From: Ewingella americana ATCC 33852
Lineage (GTDB): Bacteria > Pseudomonadota > Gammaproteobacteria > Enterobacterales > Enterobacteriaceae
Assembly: GCF_000735345.1 (NCBI RefSeq)
Contig: NZ_JMPJ01000045.1
Span: 1-42,296 of the forward strand
Direction: 5' to 3'
DNA: 42,296 nt
The notes beneath the pieces are model-generated. The model was not told where the DNA came from and did not search any database. It was given only the letters and a program-made list of their open reading frames with translations. The position numbers were made by a program, and so were the translations under genes. Shown piece by piece: positions 1 to 42,296 of the stretch (positions are counted from its first letter, which is position 1; every line of letters begins with the position of its first letter).

Positions 1-206
1 AAAGGCTCGAGACCCGAACTGAGGGAACCGCCTAAGCGGCGGCACTTCGCGGCGAACACCGTGGCCGCTGGAACACGTCCATTCCAACCCTGCGAAGCCT
101 CGATCTTACAACAGCAAAAAAACGCAGGATTCCAAAGGGTTTCGTTTAAAACCCTTTGGGCCAGTTTGCGTGGCAACGCAAGGTCTTGAACTTGACCTTA
201 AAGAAA
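1..206 (-). repeat. Multi-hairpin dispersed repeat, copy A (partial, cut by window edge)
   Basis: Reverse complement of the elements at 16668, 21941 and 41940. It carries the invariant hairpin CCGCC-TAAGC-GGCGG (28-42), the conserved core around 60-112, an A-run (T-run in element orientation) at 115-121, and the large hairpin CCAAAGGGTTT/AAACCCTTTGG (arms 132-142 and 149-159, loop 143-148). Next come a small hairpin TTGCGT/ACGCAA (about 167-182) and a hexamer-like tract (about 183-205). The right part of the element lies outside the window. It sits directly downstream of nth. Confidence 0.85.
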
Positions 207-15598: not shown

Positions 15599-16626
15599 GC
15601 CAGAAAAAAGTCACCATCACCGACGTCGCCCAGCATGCAGGCACCTCCGTGACCACCGTTTCCTTGGTGCTAAGTGGGAAAGGGCGCATCTCCCCGGCCA
15701 CCGCCGAGCGGGTGAATCAGGCCGTCGAGCAGTTGGGGTTTGTGCGTAACCGGCAGGCCAGTACGCTACGCGGCGGAGAGTCCGGCGTGGTGGGGCTGAT
15801 CGTGCGTGATATCTGCGAACCTTTCTATGCCGAGATGACCGCTGGCCTGAGTGAGATGTTTGAAGCTCAGGGTAAGGTATTGTTTTTGCTGCAAAGTGGC
15901 TCATCAGGCAAAGGTTTGGCGCGCTGCTTCGAGACGCTGCTGACCCACGGCGTTGACGGTATTGTGATTGCTGGTGGGGAGCACGCCCCGGCCGGGCTGA
16001 AAGAGAAAGCCTGCGAGCAGGGCGTGCCGCTGATCTGCGCCTCGCGCGCCAGCGGCATCGACGGCGTTGATTTGGTGCGGCCTGACAATATGCTGGCGGC
16101 AAAAATGGCGACGGAATATTTAATCAAACGTGGCCATAAGCAGATTGCTTACCTCGGCGGCCTAAGTGATTCACTCACCCGCGCGGAGCGTTTAGGCGGC
16201 TTTTGCGCCACGCTGGTGCAGTACGGTTTGCCATTTCGCAGCGAATGGATCATCGAGTGTGACTATCAGCAGAAGTGCGCCGCCGACGCCGCCGAGACTT
16301 TATTGCGCCACTATCCCAAGATCAGCGCCATCGTCTGCCATAAGTCGTCAGTTGCCATGGGCGCCTATTTCGGCATCATGCGCACCGGCAACCTGATCGG
16401 CGGCGGCGCGGTAGATAACTTCTTCCAGCAGCAAATCGCGTTAATCGCCATGGAAGACGCCCCCGAAGCCGAACTCACCGAACCGCCCTTAACCTCAATA
16501 GCCAGCTCCGCCCGCGAGATAGGCCACGCCGCCGCCCGAAGGTTGTTGCTGAGGATAGGGGGGCAGAACCTCGAAACGCAGAATATTATTGTGGCACCAG
16601 GGTTAATTGAGAGGGCATCAGCATAA
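15595..16626 (+). CDS. malI: LacI-family transcriptional repressor MalI
   Basis: Repressor of malXY and of itself. The 343-aa protein (E. coli 342) has a LacI-type helix-turn-helix at residues about 5-25 (VTITDVAQHAGTSVTTVSLVLSG), a hinge QLGFVRNRQASTLRGG, and a periplasmic-binding-protein-like effector domain with VVGLIVRDICEPFYAEMTAGL, GVDGIVIAGG and SLTRAERLGGFCATL. It is divergent from malX, with operators in between. The 3' end runs straight into the dispersed repeat at 16668; no ordinary terminator was seen. Confidence 0.95.
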   Translation: MSQKKVTITDVAQHAGTSVTTVSLVLSGKGRISPATAERVNQAVEQLGFVRNRQASTLRGGESGVVGLIVRDICEPFYAEMTAGLSEMFEAQGKVLFLLQSGSSGKGLARCFETLLTHGVDGIVIAGGEHAPAGLKEKACEQGVPLICASRASGIDGVDLVRPDNMLAAKMATEYLIKRGHKQIAYLGGLSDSLTRAERLGGFCATLVQYGLPFRSEWIIECDYQQKCAADAAETLLRHYPKISAIVCHKSSVAMGAYFGIMRTGNLIGGGAVDNFFQQQIALIAMEDAPEAELTEPPLTSIASSAREIGHAAARRLLLRIGGQNLETQNIIVAPGLIERASA

Positions 16627-16667
16627 GGGTTTTATGGGCGGCAGCCCTGACCTGCTTTTAAACTCTT

Positions 16668-16965
16668 TAACGTCAAATTCAAAACCGTGGGCTCGCCGCC
16701 CACACTGGCCCAAAGGGTTTTTAAACGAAACCCTTTGGAATCCTGCGTTTTTTTGCTGCTTGAAGATCGAGGCTGCGCAGGGTCGGAATGGACATATTTC
16801 AGCGGCCACAGTGTTTGTCGCGAAGTGCCGCCGCTTAGGCGGTTCCCTCGCTGCGGGATTACAACCCGCGTAAAAAGCCACGCGGTTTTCCACCTCTTGC
16901 TCGGCGTCACTTCTGAACGCGACCTACTGGCATTTACACCGTACCGTTCCAGTGGAGTGCTGTTC
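16668..16965 (+). repeat. Multi-hairpin dispersed repeat, copy B
   Basis: Modules in order: TCAAA-rich tract; hairpin GTGGGC/GCCCAC (16687-16703); hairpin CCAAAGGGTTT/AAACCCTTTGG (16710-16720 and 16728-16738, loop one base longer than in the other copies); a T7 run (about 16748-16754); conserved core (16764-16795); GTCGCGAAGTGCCGCC and the invariant CCGCC-GCTTA-GGCGG hairpin (about 16829-16843). Then comes a copy-specific hairpin GCGGG/CCCGC, and GGCGTCACTTCTGAACGCGACC (16903-16924) with a right end near 16955. It lies between convergent malI and ydgA. Confidence 0.9.
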
Positions 16966-16999
16966 TGCTTCACCCTTAAATAGGGTAGGGAGCAAAGCT

Positions 17000-17280
17000 A
17001 AATCTACTGAAACGGCACGGTCGAAATGCCTCAAAACCGCAGTCAAAAATGGCGCTGAGCGAATGGTTCGAGACCTATGGCTCGAAGCCTGAAGCGAAGG
17101 TACCGCCTAAGCGGCGACATTTTGCGGTGGATAACGGAAGTAGCTGAAACATGTCCGCTCAGCGAGCGGCAGCGCGCAGTAAAGAGCCGGGGATTCTTAA
17201 GGGGCGCGGCGATAGGCGCCCCTTAAGGCCGGTGTGGCGGCAGCGCACGGTTTTGACCTTGACCTTGAAGTTGATTTAAA
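17000..17280 (-). repeat. Multi-hairpin dispersed repeat, copy B' (inverted, diverged)
   Basis: Second element facing copy B. Its right end (about 17007-17030), the GGTTCGAGACC...GGCTCGAAGCC hairpin (17072-17090) and CCGCCTAAGCGG (17103-17114) match the reverse complement of copies C and D. The large hairpin has another stem: CTTAAGGGGCGC/GCGCCCCTTAAG (17196-17207 and 17216-17227), perfect over 12 bp. It ends in a TTGACC/TTGAAG hexamer tract (about 17252-17275). With copy B it fills the 733-bp gap between malI and ydgA. Confidence 0.85.
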
Positions 17281-17309
17281 AAGATGCAATTGAATTAAAA
17301 GATACAATA

Positions 17310-17336
17310 AAAAAAGCCCACCAAAGTGGGCTTTTT
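17310..17336. terminator. Bidirectional terminator downstream of ydgA
   Basis: GCCCAC/GTGGGC stem (17316-17321 and 17326-17331), 4-nt loop, with A-run before and T-run after, so it works in both directions. It lies 24 nt beyond the ydgA stop on the minus strand. Confidence 0.85.
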
Positions 17337-17359
17337 CGCGACTAAATAAGACTCAATTA

Positions 17360-18913
17360 TTACGGTGTATTAGGCGCTACAGGCGCAACCGGTGGAGCCA
17401 ACGGCGAGGCTGCTGGAGCCTGAGTTTGTGGCTGAACCGCGTTACCGCCGAAGATCCCGAACAGACCGGCGAACTCTTGCAGGGTCATCTTCTGACCGTT
17501 CAAATCAACCTGATTGTCGGCGTAGTGGAAGCTGCTGGAGATTGCGTCGTCTTTCAGCGTGGTGATCTTGAACATCTGACCCATGGCTGCCAGACCTTGA
17601 ACCTGCTGCTTAGCCAGTTTCTCTGCGTCGTCGCCGGTGTAACCTTCGATTTTCGCAGTTTGGGTGGTCAGCTCGGTGGCCATTGCCAGTGGAATGTTCA
17701 ACTTAGCGTCAAGCTTGCTCACCAACTGGGAAATCAGCTGATCTTCAGACTGTGCCTGAGAACCGGCGGCCGGATCTTTAAGATCTAATTGAAGGGTGAA
17801 AGTACTTTCACCTTTGCTGTTTTTCCAGCTCAGCGGGTCGATGCTGATGCTTGGGTTGCCTTTCAACAACAGTGGCAGGTTAGCGGCTAACAGCTCGGTC
17901 GCCTGCTGCTGGTAGACAGCCGGGTCAATATCGCCAGCCTGTGACAGCAACTGCTGTGACTGCTGGTTGTAGCTGTCGGAGAAGGCTTTCAGCGCGGCGG
18001 CGTCCAGTTTGTCGATTTTCACCGTCAATTTACCGGAACCAAAATCGCTGTTCTGAATCTTCAGCGCATCAATGGTGTAGTCCTGCTGGCCTTTGATATT
18101 GCTGCCTTCTTCGCTGAACTTGCTGACCAGCTTAAAGTTATCCAGAGAAGCCGCGTCTTTGCCATCAACATTGACTGCCACTTGCTTGATGGTCAGGTTT
18201 TGATCGCCAATGCCCACTTTAGACGCGCCCTGATTGGTGTCGCTGTCCAGAGAGAAGCCATTCAGAGTTACTTTTTCTTGCTGACCGAACTGGTTCTGAG
18301 AAGTGATGGCGATGCTGTCGCTCTTCGCATCCAACTTCATCTTGGTCAGCTCTTTATCCACGGCGACATTGATGTCCGCGCCGCCGAATTGCAGCTTGCT
18401 GTTGTTCTTATCGTAATCAACCGGAATAAAGTTGATGGCCGAAGAGCTGTCGCCGTTATAGGAAACGCGAGTATCAGCAGTCACCAGAGACTTGCCCTTG
18501 GTCACGTCAAACAGCGCTTTCAGCGTGGCGGTGTTTTCCAGTTCGCTGTGAACTGACGCCATGCTTGGGATCAGATTGAATTTTTTCAGCTGAGCTGCGG
18601 GGAAAGGACCATGATCGATAGTTTCGATAAAGGAGATTTCATCACCGGTTTTCAGCGCGCTGGTGCCAGCAGCAGCGGCCGCGGCATCAGGTTTCAGAAT
18701 AATGCGTACCTGGCTGCTGAACAGCCCACGTTGGTAGTCTTGATAGGAGACGTTAACCCCGGCTTTCGGGAAAGAGGATTGGATCTGGCTATTCGCGTTG
18801 GTCGCCACTTCAGCCATATGCTGTTCAATCATTTTGCCCGTATACCACGAGACGCCTGTCCAGGCCGCGCCAAGTACCACAATGACGCTTACAGCGACTA
18901 ACGATTTTTTCAT
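17360..18913 (-). CDS. ydgA: DUF945 family protein YdgA
   Basis: Envelope protein of 517 aa (E. coli 502) with an uncleaved signal or anchor helix (KKSLVAVSVIVVLGAAWTG) and a long exported region. Family blocks include YDHGPFP-like ETIDHGPFPAAQLKKFNLIPS, YNGDSSSAINF and KLAKQQVQGLAAMGQMF. The start MKKSLVAVS matches E. coli; AAGGA lies 11 nt upstream, a little far, and an in-frame ATG at 18925 is too close to it. The C terminus is a Pro/Ala/Gln-rich tail. Function is not established. It lies beside manA as in E. coli. Confidence 0.9.
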   Translation of the reverse strand: MKKSLVAVSVIVVLGAAWTGVSWYTGKMIEQHMAEVATNANSQIQSSFPKAGVNVSYQDYQRGLFSSQVRIILKPDAAAAAAGTSALKTGDEISFIETIDHGPFPAAQLKKFNLIPSMASVHSELENTATLKALFDVTKGKSLVTADTRVSYNGDSSSAINFIPVDYDKNNSKLQFGGADINVAVDKELTKMKLDAKSDSIAITSQNQFGQQEKVTLNGFSLDSDTNQGASKVGIGDQNLTIKQVAVNVDGKDAASLDNFKLVSKFSEEGSNIKGQQDYTIDALKIQNSDFGSGKLTVKIDKLDAAALKAFSDSYNQQSQQLLSQAGDIDPAVYQQQATELLAANLPLLLKGNPSISIDPLSWKNSKGESTFTLQLDLKDPAAGSQAQSEDQLISQLVSKLDAKLNIPLAMATELTTQTAKIEGYTGDDAEKLAKQQVQGLAAMGQMFKITTLKDDAISSSFHYADNQVDLNGQKMTLQEFAGLFGIFGGNAVQPQTQAPAASPLAPPVAPVAPNTP

Positions 18914-18945
18914 AGTTCTGTTCATCCTTAGATAATGTCTCGAAA

Positions 18946-18964
18946 TAAAAAACGCCTTACGGCG
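18946..18964 (-). terminator. Rho-independent terminator of manA
   Basis: On the minus strand: CGCC-GTAA-GGCG, a GNRA-type tetraloop (18953-18964), followed by TTTTTTATTT. It lies about 110 nt past the manA stop and just before ydgA, so ydgA probably has its own promoter or depends on readthrough. Confidence 0.7.
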
Positions 18965-19075
18965 CGATTTATTGTGGTGTAAGTGGGGCATGAATGGCAA
19001 ATTTTTCACAAAAATGAAGCATATCGCCTCAATTGCTCCACCTATATTTACTGCTTAATTACATCACGTGCAGCA

Positions 19076-20251
19076 TCAAAGCTTATTAAACACGCGTGCA
19101 ATGCGGCCGTTGCCGCTCACCTCGACCGGCGATTCGCTGGCGGAAAGGTAACAAGATTCCCCCGGCTTCAGCACCTGCGTCTCTTCACCTTTTTCCAGCA
19201 CCGTTTGCCCTTCAATACAGAAGATGATCGCCGCGCTATTTTGCGCCAGCGTTTGTGGCTCAGGTGACAAGCTGTGGATCGAGAAAGCAAAGTCTTCAAC
19301 GGGAATTGGGAAACTCAGCTCTGCGCCTTTCTCTACCGGCGAGGTTAAAAGCTCCCCAGCAGGTTTAGCAGTGAATTTCAGATTGTCCAGCAGCTCGGCG
19401 ATATCAATGTATTTCGGCGTCAAACCTGCGCGCAGCACGTTGTCCGAGTTGGCCATGACTTCCAGCGCTACGCCGTTGAGATAGGCGTGCGGCGTTTCGG
19501 CGTACAGGAACATGCCTTCACCCGGCTTGAGAGTGATGACGTTGAGCAGCAGAGGTGAGAACAGGCCGCTGTCCTCTGGGTAGAATTCGCTGATGCTGCG
19601 AATGGTGTCCCACGGCTGACCTTTTTGGTTATTCAACGCTGATTTCAACACGCCTAGTGCCAGAGATTTCGCTTCGCCTTCAAGGCTCAGCAGGCTAGCG
19701 AACAGGGTACGCAGATGATCGACATCAGGGTGCGTCAGGAATTCAGCAATATTCGGGTTAGCGCCAGAAACTGGCTGCAACAGCGACACAATTTCACGCA
19801 GCTCGCGGAAACCATTCATCGCCTGGAAAGGTGTCAATGCGTAAACCAACTCTGGCTTATGGTTAGCATCTTTATAGTTACGCTCTGCGGCATCAATCGG
19901 GATACCGGCAGCGTTCTCTTTGGCAAAACCCAGTTCCGCAGCGCGTTTGCTTGGGTGAACCTGAATGGACAGCGGCTGGTCGGCGCACAGCACTTTGAAC
20001 AGGAAAGGCAGCTCGCCAAAGCGTGCGGCGACTTTCGGCCCCAGCTCTTGCTCCAGATTGGCGCTAATTTGGCTGCGCAGGGCGATTTCCTGACCGTCGC
20101 TTCCTTTTACATAAGAGCTGCTTTTTGGGTGTGCACCCATCCAAAGTTCAGCCATTGGCTTTCCTTCGGGATTGGCAATGCCATAAAGGTGGGTTAATGC
20201 GTCGGTGCTGCCCCAGGCGTAGTTTTGTACACCGTTGTTCATTTTTTGCAT
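19076..20251 (-). CDS. manA: Mannose-6-phosphate isomerase, class I
   Basis: Zinc enzyme interconverting mannose-6-P and fructose-6-P, for mannose use and GDP-mannose supply. Length is 391 aa, as in E. coli. Diagnostic segments are VQNYAWGS, PMAELWMGAHP, PLSIQVHPSK (zinc ligands), NHKPELVYALTPF and ETPHAYLNGVALEVMANSDNVLRAGLTPKY with the catalytic arginine. AGGA lies 7 nt before the ATG. It is transcribed divergently from fumC; the fumA gene that separates the two in E. coli is absent. Confidence 0.98.
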   Translation of the reverse strand: MQKMNNGVQNYAWGSTDALTHLYGIANPEGKPMAELWMGAHPKSSSYVKGSDGQEIALRSQISANLEQELGPKVAARFGELPFLFKVLCADQPLSIQVHPSKRAAELGFAKENAAGIPIDAAERNYKDANHKPELVYALTPFQAMNGFRELREIVSLLQPVSGANPNIAEFLTHPDVDHLRTLFASLLSLEGEAKSLALGVLKSALNNQKGQPWDTIRSISEFYPEDSGLFSPLLLNVITLKPGEGMFLYAETPHAYLNGVALEVMANSDNVLRAGLTPKYIDIAELLDNLKFTAKPAGELLTSPVEKGAELSFPIPVEDFAFSIHSLSPEPQTLAQNSAAIIFCIEGQTVLEKGEETQVLKPGESCYLSASESPVEVSGNGRIARVFNKL

Positions 20252-20519
20252 ATTTCGTCCTGAAATCCCCGTTTTGCAGGGGATGATGTGAAGAAAATTA
20301 CTGTGGCGTAGTAAACAATGAGCACGGGCGGTTAAGCAACTGCTGATGATGAAAAAGTGCGGTAAATGCGAGAAATTATCAATTAGGGATTCTGAAATGA
20401 AATGGCTGGCCTATACTCGACGAGTCGCCTGAAGATGATCTGCGTGGCAGTTCTTGGCGGTAAACCTTTGCAAATCATAAATATTAAATTTCACCAGAAA
20501 CGAAATTAGGAGAAATATT

Positions 20520-21914
20520 ATGGCGGCAACACGCACTGAAAAGGACTCAATGGGGCCTATCGATGTACCGGCTGATAAACTTTGGGGCGCGCAGACCCAG
20601 CGTTCTCTGGAGCATTTCCGTATTTCCTCCGAAAAGATGCCTGAGGCCCTGATCCACGCCTTGGCACAGACCAAACGCGCGGCGGCCAGCGTCAATCTGG
20701 ATCTGGGCCTGCTGCCGAAAGAGCGCGCCGATGCGATTATCGCCGCCGCCGACGAAGTGCTGGCTGGCAAGCATCCTACCGAATTCCCGCTGGCAATCTG
20801 GCAGACAGGTTCCGGCACTCAAACCAACATGAATATGAATGAAGTGCTGGCTAACCGGGCGAGTGAGATCCTCGGCGGCGAGCGAGGAGAAGGGCGCAAA
20901 GTTCACCCGAATGATGATGTGAACAAGAGCCAAAGCTCGAACGACGTTTTCCCGACGGCGATGCACGTCGCCGCCGTTATCGAACTGCGCGAAACCCTGC
21001 TGCCTGAATTGAAAGAGCTGCACAAGACGTTGGCGGCGAAATCCGACGCTTTCAAAGATATCGTCAAGATTGGCCGTACCCACCTGCAAGACGCCACGCC
21101 GCTGACGCTCGGCCAAGAGATCTCTGGCTGGGTGGCGATGCTGGCCCACAGCATGGTGCACATTGAAGCCAGTATCCCGCACATTGCAGAATTAGCCTTG
21201 GGCGGCACGGCGGTAGGCACTGGGTTGAACACCCATCCTGAGTACGCGGTGCGCGTCGCCAAAGCCTTGGCAGAAGAGACTAAACAGCCTTTCGTCACCG
21301 CACCGAACAAGTTTGAAGCACTGGCGACCTGCGACGCACTGGTGCAGGGCCACGGCGCATTGAAAGGATTGGCAGCGTCTCTGATGAAAATCGCCAATGA
21401 CGTGCGCTGGTTGTCTTCCGGCCCGCGCTGCGGCATCGGCGAGATTTCTATCCCTGAAAATGAGCCGGGCAGCTCCATCATGCCGGGCAAAGTGAACCCA
21501 ACCCAGTGCGAAGCCATGACCATGCTGTGCGCGCAGGTTCTGGGTAACGACGTGGCAATCAACATCGGCGGCGCTTCCGGCAACTTCGAGCTGAACGTCT
21601 TCCGCCCAATGGTGATCCACAACTTCCTGCAATCCATCCGCCTGCTGGCCGACGGCATGCGCGGCTTTAACGAGCACTGCGCCGTAGGCATCGAACCCGT
21701 CCGCGACCGCATCACCCAGCTACTCAACGAATCCCTGATGCTGGTTACCGCGCTCAACACCCATATCGGCTACGACAAAGCGGCAGAAATCGCCAAAAAA
21801 GCGCACAAAGAAGGGCTAACCTTGAAAGGCTCTGCGCTGAAACTCGGCTATCTGACCGAGGCTGAATTCGACGAGTGGGTTAAGCCGGAGGATATGGTTG
21901 GGAGCATGAAGTAG
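20520..21914 (+). CDS. fumC: Class II fumarate hydratase
   Basis: Iron-independent, oxidation-resistant fumarase of the TCA cycle. Length is 464 aa (E. coli 467). It shows the superfamily signature [17 protein letters not shown] with the flexible catalytic-serine loop, [27 protein letters not shown] and [17 protein letters not shown] strong ribosome site AGGAGA precedes the ATG. The 268-bp gap to manA is A+T-rich near fumC (20470-20510) and should hold both promoters. E. coli fumC is SoxRS-regulated; I could not confirm a soxbox. Confidence 0.98.
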
Positions 21915-21925
21915 TTGGACTGATG

Positions 21926-21945
21926 GGGGCAGTTTTGGCCCCTTT
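21926..21945 (+). terminator. Probable fumC terminator
   Basis: GGGGC (21926-21930), 7-nt loop, GCCCC (21938-21942), then TTT, starting 12 nt after the fumC stop. Short stem and T-run, but correct position and orientation. Confidence 0.5.
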
Positions 21946-22279
21946 AAGTTCAAAATCAAAATCAAAATCAAAATCAAAGTCGTGGGCGTCGGCCCACACC
22001 GACCAAGGGAGGCGTAAACGCGCCTCCCTTGGAACCCTGCGTTTTTCCTGTTGAGAGATCGAGGCTGCGCGGGTCGGAATGGACATGTTTCAGGCACTTT
22101 AGTGATCGTCGCGAAGTGCCGCCGCTTAGGCGGTTCCCTCAGTTCGGGCTTCGAGCCATAGGTCTCGAACCACTCCCTCGGCGTCACTTCTGAACGCGAC
22201 CTACAGGCATCTCAACCGAACCGTTCCAGTAATTTTTTCTCAGGCTTGGTCTTTGCTCCTCCCCCTGAAAAGGGGGAGG
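21941..22279 (+). repeat. Multi-hairpin dispersed repeat, copy C (swapped stem)
   Basis: Starts with a perfect hexamer tract (TCAAAA, about five units, 21950-21979), then GTGGGC/GCCCAC (21982-21997). The large hairpin here is CCAAGGGAGGCG/CGCCTCCCTTGG (22003-22014 and 22021-22032): a different stem from copies A, B and D but the same TAAACG loop. The conserved core, the invariant CCGCC-GCTTA-GGCGG hairpin (about 22119-22133), GGCTTCGAGCC...GGTCTCGAACC (22147-22171), GGCGTCACTTCTGAACGCGACC (22180-22201), a T-run (22233-22238) and a terminal hairpin CCTCCCCCT/AGGGGGAGG (22258-22279) follow. It fills the gap between convergent fumC and tus. Confidence 0.9.
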
Positions 22280-22338
22280 CTGGGAGGGGGTATTGCAGAA
22301 AACTCAGTGCTTTAGGTCAGTCTGTGAGTGGGTTAACT

Positions 22339-22361
22339 CCTTCTCCTCTCAGAGGAGAAGG
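22339..22361. repeat. CT-rich hairpin, second copy of the terminal module
   Basis: CCTTCTCCTC (22339-22348), loop TCA, GAGGAGAAGG (22352-22361), followed by CTGGGATGAGG. The hairpin at 22258-22279 has the same layout and tail (CTGGGAGGGGG), and a near-identical hairpin closes copy D (42270-42286). It lies 33 bp past the tus stop codon and may terminate tus. Confidence 0.7.
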
Positions 22362-22393
22362 CTGGGATGAGGAGTGGTTTCAACCGCACAAAC

Positions 22394-23347
22394 TCAGCTC
22401 TCAACAACCTGATCAGCCGACCAATCGGTATATAAATGCAGCCGTTTTATCAGCAAGTTCAGCGACTGGGCCTCCGGCTTATACTTGTGCTTCACGGCAC
22501 TCACATCATAATCATTCAACTCGCCAAGCTTGGGCACTTGCACATTGGGTGACTTCAAACAGAGGGCGATGAGCGGCAGTGGGCAGGGGTGTTGAACTTG
22601 CTTCTGGCTGTTGCGATACCAAACTCGGGCGATGGGCTGGACCTTTACCGGGCGCTTAATCTTCAAAATGGCATGCTCGGGAATACGCTTTACGTCATTG
22701 ATTTCACGAGTAACGTTATCCATCCACTGCTCGCGGCTGTAAGGCGGCACGGAGCGACCGGCTTTTAGGCTTTTATCTAACTGGGCAAGAACGTCATCGC
22801 GACTGACATTCTTAATAATGTGCTTATTCGCCCAGCCAAAACGCACTGAATCCGGGTCATTCAAATAAGAAATTGTGCGGTAGGCGTTCAGCGTGATCAG
22901 ACCGCGCAGGTGAGTGTGCACGAATTCAAAACGCTGCTCGCGGGCAAGGCCGGATTCCACGGTAACAATGTGTTCCAGTTCGGCCTTAAGCTTATTCACT
23001 TCCTCTATCAACAGCAGGGCGGCCTGATGTTCAGAAGCATCAACGGCATAACACAGTACGCCGGGCAGGCGGACGGCGGACTTACTGCTGACATTCTCAC
23101 CTTGATGATGAATAAACAGATTCTGGAAATGCTGCAACGCCAGCTGCTGCGCGGCTTCACCGACGTAAGGCGTCACCTGAATACGGTCGGCAGGGTTGTG
23201 CTCCTCGCCTTTGGCGATCTCCGGCAGGCTGAATACCCGCGCCTGTAAAAGCTCCAACTGCTTTAACAAACGACTGAGATCGCCAAGTGCCAGTTCTAAC
23301 TCGTTGAAACAACTGTTCATTCGCCCAATTAGGTCGTAATTCGACAT
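22394..23347 (-). CDS. tus: Replication terminus site-binding protein Tus
   Basis: Monomeric DNA-binding protein that holds Ter sites and blocks the DnaB helicase from one side. Length is 317 aa (E. coli 309). It contains SSKSAVRLPGVLCYAVD, GLITLNAYRT, FGWANKHIIKNVSRDDVLAQL (with the conserved histidine that forms part of the fork lock in E. coli), LKIKRPVKVQPIARVWY and KQVQHPCPLPLIAL, the interdomain strands that grip DNA. GGAGG lies 5 nt before the ATG. A Ter site lies 8 bp upstream of the start codon, so autorepression is expected, as in E. coli. It follows fumC convergently. Confidence 0.97.
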   Translation of the reverse strand: MSNYDLIGRMNSCFNELELALGDLSRLLKQLELLQARVFSLPEIAKGEEHNPADRIQVTPYVGEAAQQLALQHFQNLFIHHQGENVSSKSAVRLPGVLCYAVDASEHQAALLLIEEVNKLKAELEHIVTVESGLAREQRFEFVHTHLRGLITLNAYRTISYLNDPDSVRFGWANKHIIKNVSRDDVLAQLDKSLKAGRSVPPYSREQWMDNVTREINDVKRIPEHAILKIKRPVKVQPIARVWYRNSQKQVQHPCPLPLIALCLKSPNVQVPKLGELNDYDVSAVKHKYKPEAQSLNLLIKRLHLYTDWSADQVVES

Positions 23348-41939: not shown

Positions 41940-42296
41940 GCGACCCTTAAGGTCAAAACCGTGCGCTGCCGCCACACCGGCCTTAAGGTCAGAACCGTGG
42001 GCTCGCCGCCCACACTGGCCCAAAGGGTTTTAAACGAAACCCTTTGGAATCCTGCGTTTTTCTGCTGTTGGAAGATCGAGGCTGCGCAGGGGTGGAATGG
42101 ACGTGTTTCAGTGGCCGCGGTGATCGTCGCGAAGTGCCGCCGCTTAGGCGGTTCCCGAATTTCAGGCTTCGAGCCTTTGGTCTCGAACCATTCATTCGGC
42201 GTCACTTCTGAACGCGACCTACTGGCATTTACACCGTGCCGTTTCAGGTGGTTTTTTGGATTTGCTCCATCTCCTCTCAGAGGAGAAGGCAGGGAA
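41940..42296 (+). repeat. Multi-hairpin dispersed repeat, copy D (runs to window end)
   Basis: The left module is present twice: ACCGTGCGCTGCCGCC...CCTTAAGG (about 41959-41987, resembling copy B') and then ACCGTGGGCTCGCCGCCCAC (about 41994-42013, resembling copy B). The large hairpin CCAAAGGGTTT/AAACCCTTTGG (42020-42030 and 42037-42047, loop TAAACG) follows. Then come the conserved core, CCGCC-GCTTA-GGCGG (about 42138-42152), GGCTTCGAGCC...GGTCTCGAACC (about 42167-42190), GGCGTCACTTCTGAACGCGACC (42199-42220), a T6 run (42252-42257) and the CT-rich hairpin (42270-42286). It lies upstream of the TonB-dependent receptor; its right neighbour is outside the window. Confidence 0.9.

Follow-up and report, generated by a model that had tools for sequence, protein, structure and literature searches.

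REP sequences, the closest described system, form dimers of intergenic palindromes that lie mostly head-to-head and occupy sites downstream of genes, with convergent or co-directional genes on either side, as set out in PMC3733652, where G.T pairing in REPs is also taken to indicate transcription. We describe here a larger element from Ewingella americana ATCC 33852 (genome G000; 4.87 Mb in 92 contigs), located in one whole contig of that genome (NZ_JMPJ01000045.1, 42,296 nucleotides; hereafter the window). Like REPs and BIMEs, this element is intergenic, arranged head-to-head and placed between convergent or co-directional genes. It differs from them in three respects: the REP unit is 20-40 bp, whereas each arm of this element is 250-300 bp and carries several hairpins; REPs carry a GTAG or CGTC tag, whereas no tag constant across arms was found here; and in none of the 151 convergent pairs examined did the partner arms share a stem. 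The element was kept out of the REP family because it is larger, because no constant tag was found and because its own genome has no Y1 transposase. REPINs are short palindromic repeats dispersed as inverted dimers and associated with RAYT transposases. The element departs from these too, with a unit of ~600 bp, sites common to species and a genome without Y1_Tnp, and on this last ground a RAYT/REPIN partnership was rejected.

Other repeats of enterobacteria, namely ERIC (IRU), YPAL and the RU elements, resemble the element in being small and intergenic and have been likened to miniature inverted-repeat transposable elements (MITEs) (PMC2759123 and PMC2229807), and ERIC folds as RNA (PMC2267715). 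RU-1, RU-2 and RU-3 are 127, 168 and 103 bp (PMC2759123), shorter than the ~600 bp found here; these were set apart by description rather than by alignment, and ERIC was likewise compared by description only. The RNA hairpins reshaped by template switching in PMC8794818 share with this element multi-base compensatory stem changes and a retained loop, but template switching is a mutation mechanism in RNA genes rather than a repeat family, and here exchange between copies appears to explain most stem differences at orthologous loci. Membership of an Rfam family was rejected because no family matched at gathering score in the window (two sub-threshold matches in 16600-22300, with E-values of 0.4 and 1, both lie outside the arms), and a literature search confined to the best-matching open-licence papers found no description of the family. 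An earlier note on this DNA, made from the sequence alone, had judged the repeat unlike REP, ERIC or BOX elements.

The full unit is ~600 bp in length and comprises two convergent arms of ~250-300 bp, each of which carries, in the order read, hairpin I, hairpin II, a middle block, module III (a short hairpin, CCGC..GCGG), module IV (three or more alternative forms exist) and an end block. Hairpin II is a single structural slot occupied by a large number of different stems that are nearly always kept paired, in both genera studied. Arms were searched for with a covariance model (R1) at thresholds of E 1e-3 in the own genus and E 1e-6 elsewhere, and hairpin II was read in 381 of them. The own genus, represented by G000, its sister species (G001) and four further genomes (G002-G005), contributed 268 arms, after exclusion of 3 of 271 profile matches that started late in the profile. 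The second set of 113 arms comes from a second genus (g51), with the addition of four Rahnella plasmid arms and one g2 locus; it was picked by score or from dense regions out of several hundred matches, and both late-starting matches and repeated sequences were dropped. Throughout, descent, orthology and conversion link the copies to one another; neither forms nor pairs nor sites can be treated as independent, and all p values given are consequently too small.

In the union of the two sets, hairpin II takes 138 stem-loop forms with 119 stems, and 75 of these forms are perfectly paired (the count includes a few, such as the ones whose loop is CAAA, TCAAGAC or CTGTC, that are probably not hairpin II). 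The own genus has 80 forms, with perfect pairing in 49 of the 80 forms and 210 of the 268 copies, and the second set has 65, with perfect pairing in 31 of the forms and 56 of the 113 copies; seven forms are common to both. The loop families are few (TAAACG-like, ATCGCC-like and GTCGC-like, with others in g51). Covariation was analyzed in 136 arms of G002-G005 (36 of 62, 43 of 84, 46 of 81 and 11 of 54, respectively, biased to the best-scoring) using an alignment to the model, which leans towards structure. Hairpin II was found to change on both sides at 12 of 12 pairs, with 92.1% of cells paired. Covariation over the whole structure was 0.534; shuffled alignments gave 0.169 (sd 0.007) and slid ones no more than 0.144. 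Two further measures did not rise significantly above shuffles in these arms: the number of further pair types (33 versus 37.6) and the number of pairs with two-sided change (15 versus 13.5). Random, unpaired stems, the outcome that the earlier note had set against its proposal of a multi-hairpin family with variable stems but constant pairing and loop class, did not occur, and this proposal was borne out across both genera. Pairing of hairpin II is under strong constraint in each of them, and the diversity of stem forms needs compensatory change.

The copies of the element in the window, and the gene that places it on the chromosome, are as follows.

1-206, minus strand: single arm, truncated by the contig start, with its hairpin II (stem CCAAAGGGTTT, loop TAAACG on the minus strand) at 132-159
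16665-16980, plus strand: left arm of the two-arm unit (copy B of the earlier note)
16687-16703, plus strand: hairpin I of the left arm, GTGGGC[TCGCC]GCCCAC
16710-16738, plus strand: hairpin II of the left arm (the swapped stem), CCAAAGGGTTT[TTAAACG]AAACCCTTTGG, with a 7-base loop
16825-16842, plus strand: conserved block GTGCCGCCGCTTAGGCGG, the short hairpin of module III
16903-16921, plus strand: conserved block GGCGTCACTTCTGAACGCG, the end module
16991-17285, minus strand: right arm of the two-arm unit (copy B' of the earlier note), of a different arm type from the left
17196-17227, minus strand: hairpin II of the right arm, stem CTTAAGGGGCGC, loop CTATCGCC, other strand of the stem GCGCCCCTTAAG
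21941-22279, plus strand: single arm between fumC and tus (aligned arm 21968-22230 by blastn)
22003-22032, plus strand: hairpin II of this arm, CCAAGGGAGGCG[TAAACG]CGCCTCCCTTGG
22394-23347, minus strand: gene for the Tus replication-terminus binding protein (PF05472, E-value 2.9e-131)
41940-42296, plus strand: single arm at the end of the contig, with its hairpin II (stem CCAAAGGGTTT, loop TAAACG) at 42020-42047

Direct reading of the sequence confirmed the perfect hairpins, with their stems and loops, that had been reported in five window copies, including the extra T in the loop of B (TTAAACG) and the other loop of B' (CTATCGCC). The conserved blocks that the copies were said to share are present, with the reservations that the copy at 1-206 is cut short by the contig start and cannot show GGCGTCACTTCTGAACGCG and that B' carries both blocks only as variants (TGTCGCCGCTTAGGCGG and AGCGCCATTTTTGA...). 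The count of five was too generous in that B and B' are not independent: they face each other as the arms of a single unit (16665-17285). Similarly, the stems had been described as unrelated; they do differ, but genus-wide there are intermediates only one or two compensated pairs apart. The stretch 16668-17280 folds as a single 613-nt inverted repeat (-319.6 kcal/mol, z -13.8 against 20 shuffles), with both hairpins II protruding as side arms in the predicted fold; the whole unit is thus one long inverted repeat, and in this it has the terminal inverted repeats of a MITE.

Units are built according to consistent rules. Close neighbouring arms were convergent in 151 of 153 cases, comprising 104 of 106 in the own genus (neighbours less than 900 bp apart; the other two cases are same-strand third arms in G002) and 47 of 47 in the second set (less than 600 bp apart), although orthologous units are among these pairs, which are therefore not independent. 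None of the 104 own-genus pairs had the same stem on both arms, where 8.9 were expected from within-genome shuffling and zero was reached in none of 5000 shuffles. The second set also had none in 47, but with only 1.6-1.9 expected (P of zero 0.14-0.18) this is not significant alone, and the rule that partner stems are never identical therefore rests on the own genus. All six segments of the arm were less alike between partners than in shuffles (60 of the 104 pairs were usable, 54 for two of the segments, as 62 of the 268 arms lacked anchors and were excluded), so the rule concerns whole arms, and a difference specific to hairpin II was rejected. Enterobacteria do not maintain long perfect palindromes stably, which would be a plain reason for the arms of a unit to differ. 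At L351, neighbouring units at 1192 and 10719 carry the same two stems in reversed order with equal spacing (364), which suggests a recent copy or inversion.

Comparison of orthologous loci indicates how one stem comes to stand in the place of another. Of 48 sites in the own genome (contig-end arms were counted, so some are half-sites), 42 have a flank in common with some site of G001, and for 28 the same is true of retrieved sites of G002-G005. The stem is unchanged in 23 of 49 comparable orthologous arms of G000 and G001 and differs in 26, in four of these by ~1 base. In 19 of the other 22 changed arms, the middle block of the counterpart ranks worse than 10th among G001 arms (the segment ranking covered 47 arms); where stem and middle block have both changed, the arm has probably been exchanged. 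Smaller replacements are also seen. G000:C29:7199 and G001:1224914 differ in a hairpin cassette of ~60 bases and in module IV, whereas no other segmented G001 arm matches better in the middle block; at C47:6839 module IV differs, with first-rank matches for the hairpins, the middle block and module III. At G000:C53:19143 the unit is inverted in place relative to G001:2414238 when the two are aligned, and in G001 the counterpart of the window unit has no right arm.

Based on these alignments, exchange among copies would explain most of the wholesale stem replacement, on top of compensatory change, with recombination or gene conversion as the probable route. Stem alleles may spread when copies exchange entire arms or just short segments, and units can apparently invert. 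A hairpin copied as a block would bring its own partner strand and loop; when both halves of the stem travel with the loop, pairing is kept automatically, and ordinary recombination among dozens of copies suffices for the swap. The claim of the earlier note that replacement of both arms of a stem calls for a mechanism or strong structural selection is accordingly only partly upheld: pairing is strongly constrained in both genera, but block exchange is enough to produce the swap. The alleles themselves originate by compensatory change, which may proceed by selection or by template switching of the kind proposed in PMC8794818.

The few mismatches in hairpin II, counted with every mismatch type given an equal penalty, fall unevenly on the two strands. 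Distinct forms of the own genus contain 24 A.C, 4 C.A, 2 G.T and 4 other mismatches (28:2, p = 8.7e-7), and those of the second set contain 22 A.C, 8 C.A, 2 G.T and 8 others (30:2, p = 2.5e-7); in the union of forms, there are 56 A.C or C.A against 4 G.T. The own-genus ratio is still 20:2 when mismatches are collapsed by position and context. Because the bias has the same direction in left and right arms, it follows the polarity of the arm and not the replication or chromosome strand, and because A.C on the strand read corresponds to G.U on its complement, folding seems to take place on the outward-reading strand. Hairpin I carries no strand information, since its common forms are perfectly paired and its few mismatches are confined to rare forms or misfits; many beta arms have a GTGCGCTGCCGCCAC form, which does not make a clean hairpin. 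The mismatch counts suggest that the outward-reading strand of each arm must fold, and that RNA is the best fit to this signal, although single-stranded DNA would also fit.

The strand bias also bears on two rival explanations. The first is mutational upkeep only, in which template switching copies one half of a stem onto the other and no function is selected. Footprints in RNA genes that fit the creation of perfect stems and multi-base compensatory changes by template switching have been reported (PMC8794818), and one-sided change such as G.U occupies a single cell in hairpin II of the 136 aligned arms. On the other hand, loop polarity is retained, with no inverted forms of the main loops among the 381 hairpins; this argument is weakened by the intrastrand template-switch route, which according to the same paper also keeps the loop. 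The bias itself is shared by left and right arms; as these are on opposite strands, replication direction alone cannot produce it. We regard mutational upkeep alone as an unlikely account.

The second is that the arms are non-autonomous copies mobilized as single-stranded DNA by an HUH/Y1 transposase (RAYT or IS200/IS605-like) that reads a hairpin on one strand, with the stem classes representing enzyme specificities. It would accommodate the tolerance of G.T on one strand only, seen in both sets, and the REP-like dimers. A GTAG on the outward strand lies beside the end module in many alpha arms of the own genome (by eye and uncounted, a resemblance only) and was not seen by eye in the beta arms inspected there, and G002, G003 and G004 each encode one Y1_Tnp. 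The earlier note had pointed to a REP-associated transposase as a possible partner, and this was not supported: Y1_Tnp (PF01797) is unmatched in G000, G001 and G005 despite their 66, 72 and 54 arms (the E. coli control was positive; the second genus was outside this search), and no arm lies in the 3.3-kb loci surrounding the Y1_Tnp genes of G002, G003 and G004. The sites are also old, as judged from the flanks that most of them share with G001. Mobilization by such an enzyme is therefore considered improbable.

The family was found mainly in two groups of bacteria. Searches with blastn using 16668-16965 located 66 places in the own genome, some of them short, and the model matched 66, 72, 62, 84, 81 and 54 times in G000-G005, that is, in all six own-genus genomes examined. 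With one copy as a blastn query, none of 34 genomes of other genera were matched. The covariance model with stricter filters (E 1e-6) matched 7 of 198 genomes of the family, namely three of the own genus, two of g51, one of g2 (a single match, E-value 1.4e-12) and one of g131 (two matches, E-values 3.5e-7 and 8.4e-7). All 14 genomes of g51 carry the element at E 1e-6, with 11-117 arms each. Because complete convergent units with different stems, with no gene annotated beneath the matched stretches, are present on named Rahnella megaplasmids (L081 and L082; CP003404 and NZ_CP019063), g51 is probably Rahnella. No match to 16668-16980 was found by blastn at E 1e-5 among 5,426 complete E. coli genomes. 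A virus or phage origin was rejected, as at the settings used there was no blastn match in phages and no exact pattern match in viral contigs.

The tus gene marks the window as part of the terminus region, and copies elsewhere lie mostly in the half of the chromosome that is replicated last. In G001, with a single dif match at 2,094,457 and dnaA opposite, 36 of 43 sites lie no more than 1 Mb from dif (18.4 expected, p = 4e-8), and on the large contig of G226, the genome used for the second test, the same is true of 25 of 29 sites relative to dif at 3,123,704 (12.2 expected, p = 1e-6); dif clustering was thus shown in both genomes tested. With the flanking gene defined as the longest open reading frame within 450 bp, 29 of 40 units in G000 and G001 have convergent genes on either side (the others being 8 --, 2 ++ and 1 -+; three of 43 units lacked enough flank). 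Among gene boundaries of the window, judged by eye from the open reading frame list, 6 of 33 are convergent (p = 9e-14 against the units). Divergent flanking genes were found for 4 of 83 units (1 of 40 in G000 and G001, 3 of 43 in the second set).

This clustering, found in two genomes of two genera, raises the alternative of a DNA-level terminus element, a protein-binding or cruciform site that serves supercoil relief or terminus organization. The long inverted repeat and the retention of sites between species are in keeping with such a role, and REPs of E. coli are targeted by gyrase (PMC3733652). It fits less well with the copies on the named Rahnella megaplasmids and with the chromosomal sites more than 1 Mb from dif (7 of 43 in G001 and 4 of 29 in G226), and the one-strand mismatch bias favours RNA or single-stranded DNA over a duplex. 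We consider a DNA-level element a minority possibility.

Several other features accompany the copies. The contig ends at window copies are probably assembly breakpoints, and contigs C40, C42, C43, C44, C45, C50, C51, C58 and C63 of the same assembly start inside or beside an arm; the element probably breaks short-read assemblies and may thereby obscure the true pairing of arms at those contig ends. The arm at 1-206 sits downstream of a minus-strand gene (238-870) that we take to be nth-like. A second, shorter repeat (CTCCTCTCAGAGGAGAAGGC..GGGATGAGGAGTGG, CTCCCCCTGAAAAGGGGGAGG..GGGGGTATTGCAG) is present at 22255-22385 and 42265-42296 and often trails single arms or occupies unit centres. Tandem arrays of varying hexamers (ATCAAA, TTCAAA, GGTCAA, AAACCC, CACATT) flank arms or fill unit centres, as at 21950-21980 of the window and in units of G002 such as L190 and L192. 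Finally, a hairpin resembling a bidirectional intrinsic terminator (AGCCCACCAAAGTGGGCT, with A and T runs) lies at 17310-17336, between the unit and a DUF945 gene, and is retained in G001 despite the missing right arm.

Taken together, we favour, as a reasonably probable interpretation, an interspersed mosaic inverted-repeat family of the general REP-dimer/BIME kind, in which an outward RNA structure is selected and modules are recombined in and around the terminus. Hairpin II would be kept paired while its positions change on both sides, and the selected form would most likely be RNA transcribed outward through each arm, begun either at the opposite gene and extended across the unit or at the centre of the unit itself. 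Such a gene-end RNA structure may act as a barrier or stabilizer between converging transcripts. The terminus region is recombination-prone, and it may both tolerate the copies and reshuffle them.

Several observations count against this interpretation. First, the middle block has also changed (rank worse than 10) in 7 of 22 orthologous arms with an unchanged stem, so arm exchange is not strictly tied to stem change. Second, the folding energy of the arm at 16668-16965 is lower relative to shuffles on the forward strand (z -2.68) than on the outward strand (z -1.51), and the idea that folding energy favours the outward strand was rejected. Third, an enzyme that binds single-stranded DNA would likewise tolerate G.T on one strand. 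Fourth, just 20 of 43 second-set units lie between convergent genes (12 ++, 8 -- and 3 -+). Fifth, one outward frame is open in 46 of 116 arms against 9.5 in shuffles (the other two in 23 against 11.0 and in 0 against 11.2), as might be expected of a small protein family read outward. That same frame is closed in the other 70 arms, however, hairpin II alleles differ by 2 bases and module IV by ~14, which shifts the frame, and a 123-aa frame at 21816-22187 has no Pfam match. Notwithstanding the excess of open frames, protein coding was rejected as the main explanation and is very improbable.

A more far-reaching possibility, to which we give little credence at present, is that the element is heterotypic: each unit would have to carry two different hairpin identities (exchangeable tags), the arms would give outward structured RNA or single-stranded DNA, and the units would mark the terminus half of the chromosome, a kind of element not described before.

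The family provides a natural library of 119 stems (138 forms) in one structural slot, partly at chromosomal positions shared by several species, in which compensatory evolution, gene conversion and template switching are separable locus by locus. Three regularities recur in both genera: arms are nearly always convergent, partners never have the same stem (a rule not significant on its own in the second genus), and mismatches occur on one strand only. If the strand signal reflects RNA, then the Ewingella group, and probably Rahnella, would possess a large class of gene-end RNA structures, while if the dif clustering is functional, the element would offer a new handle on terminus biology.

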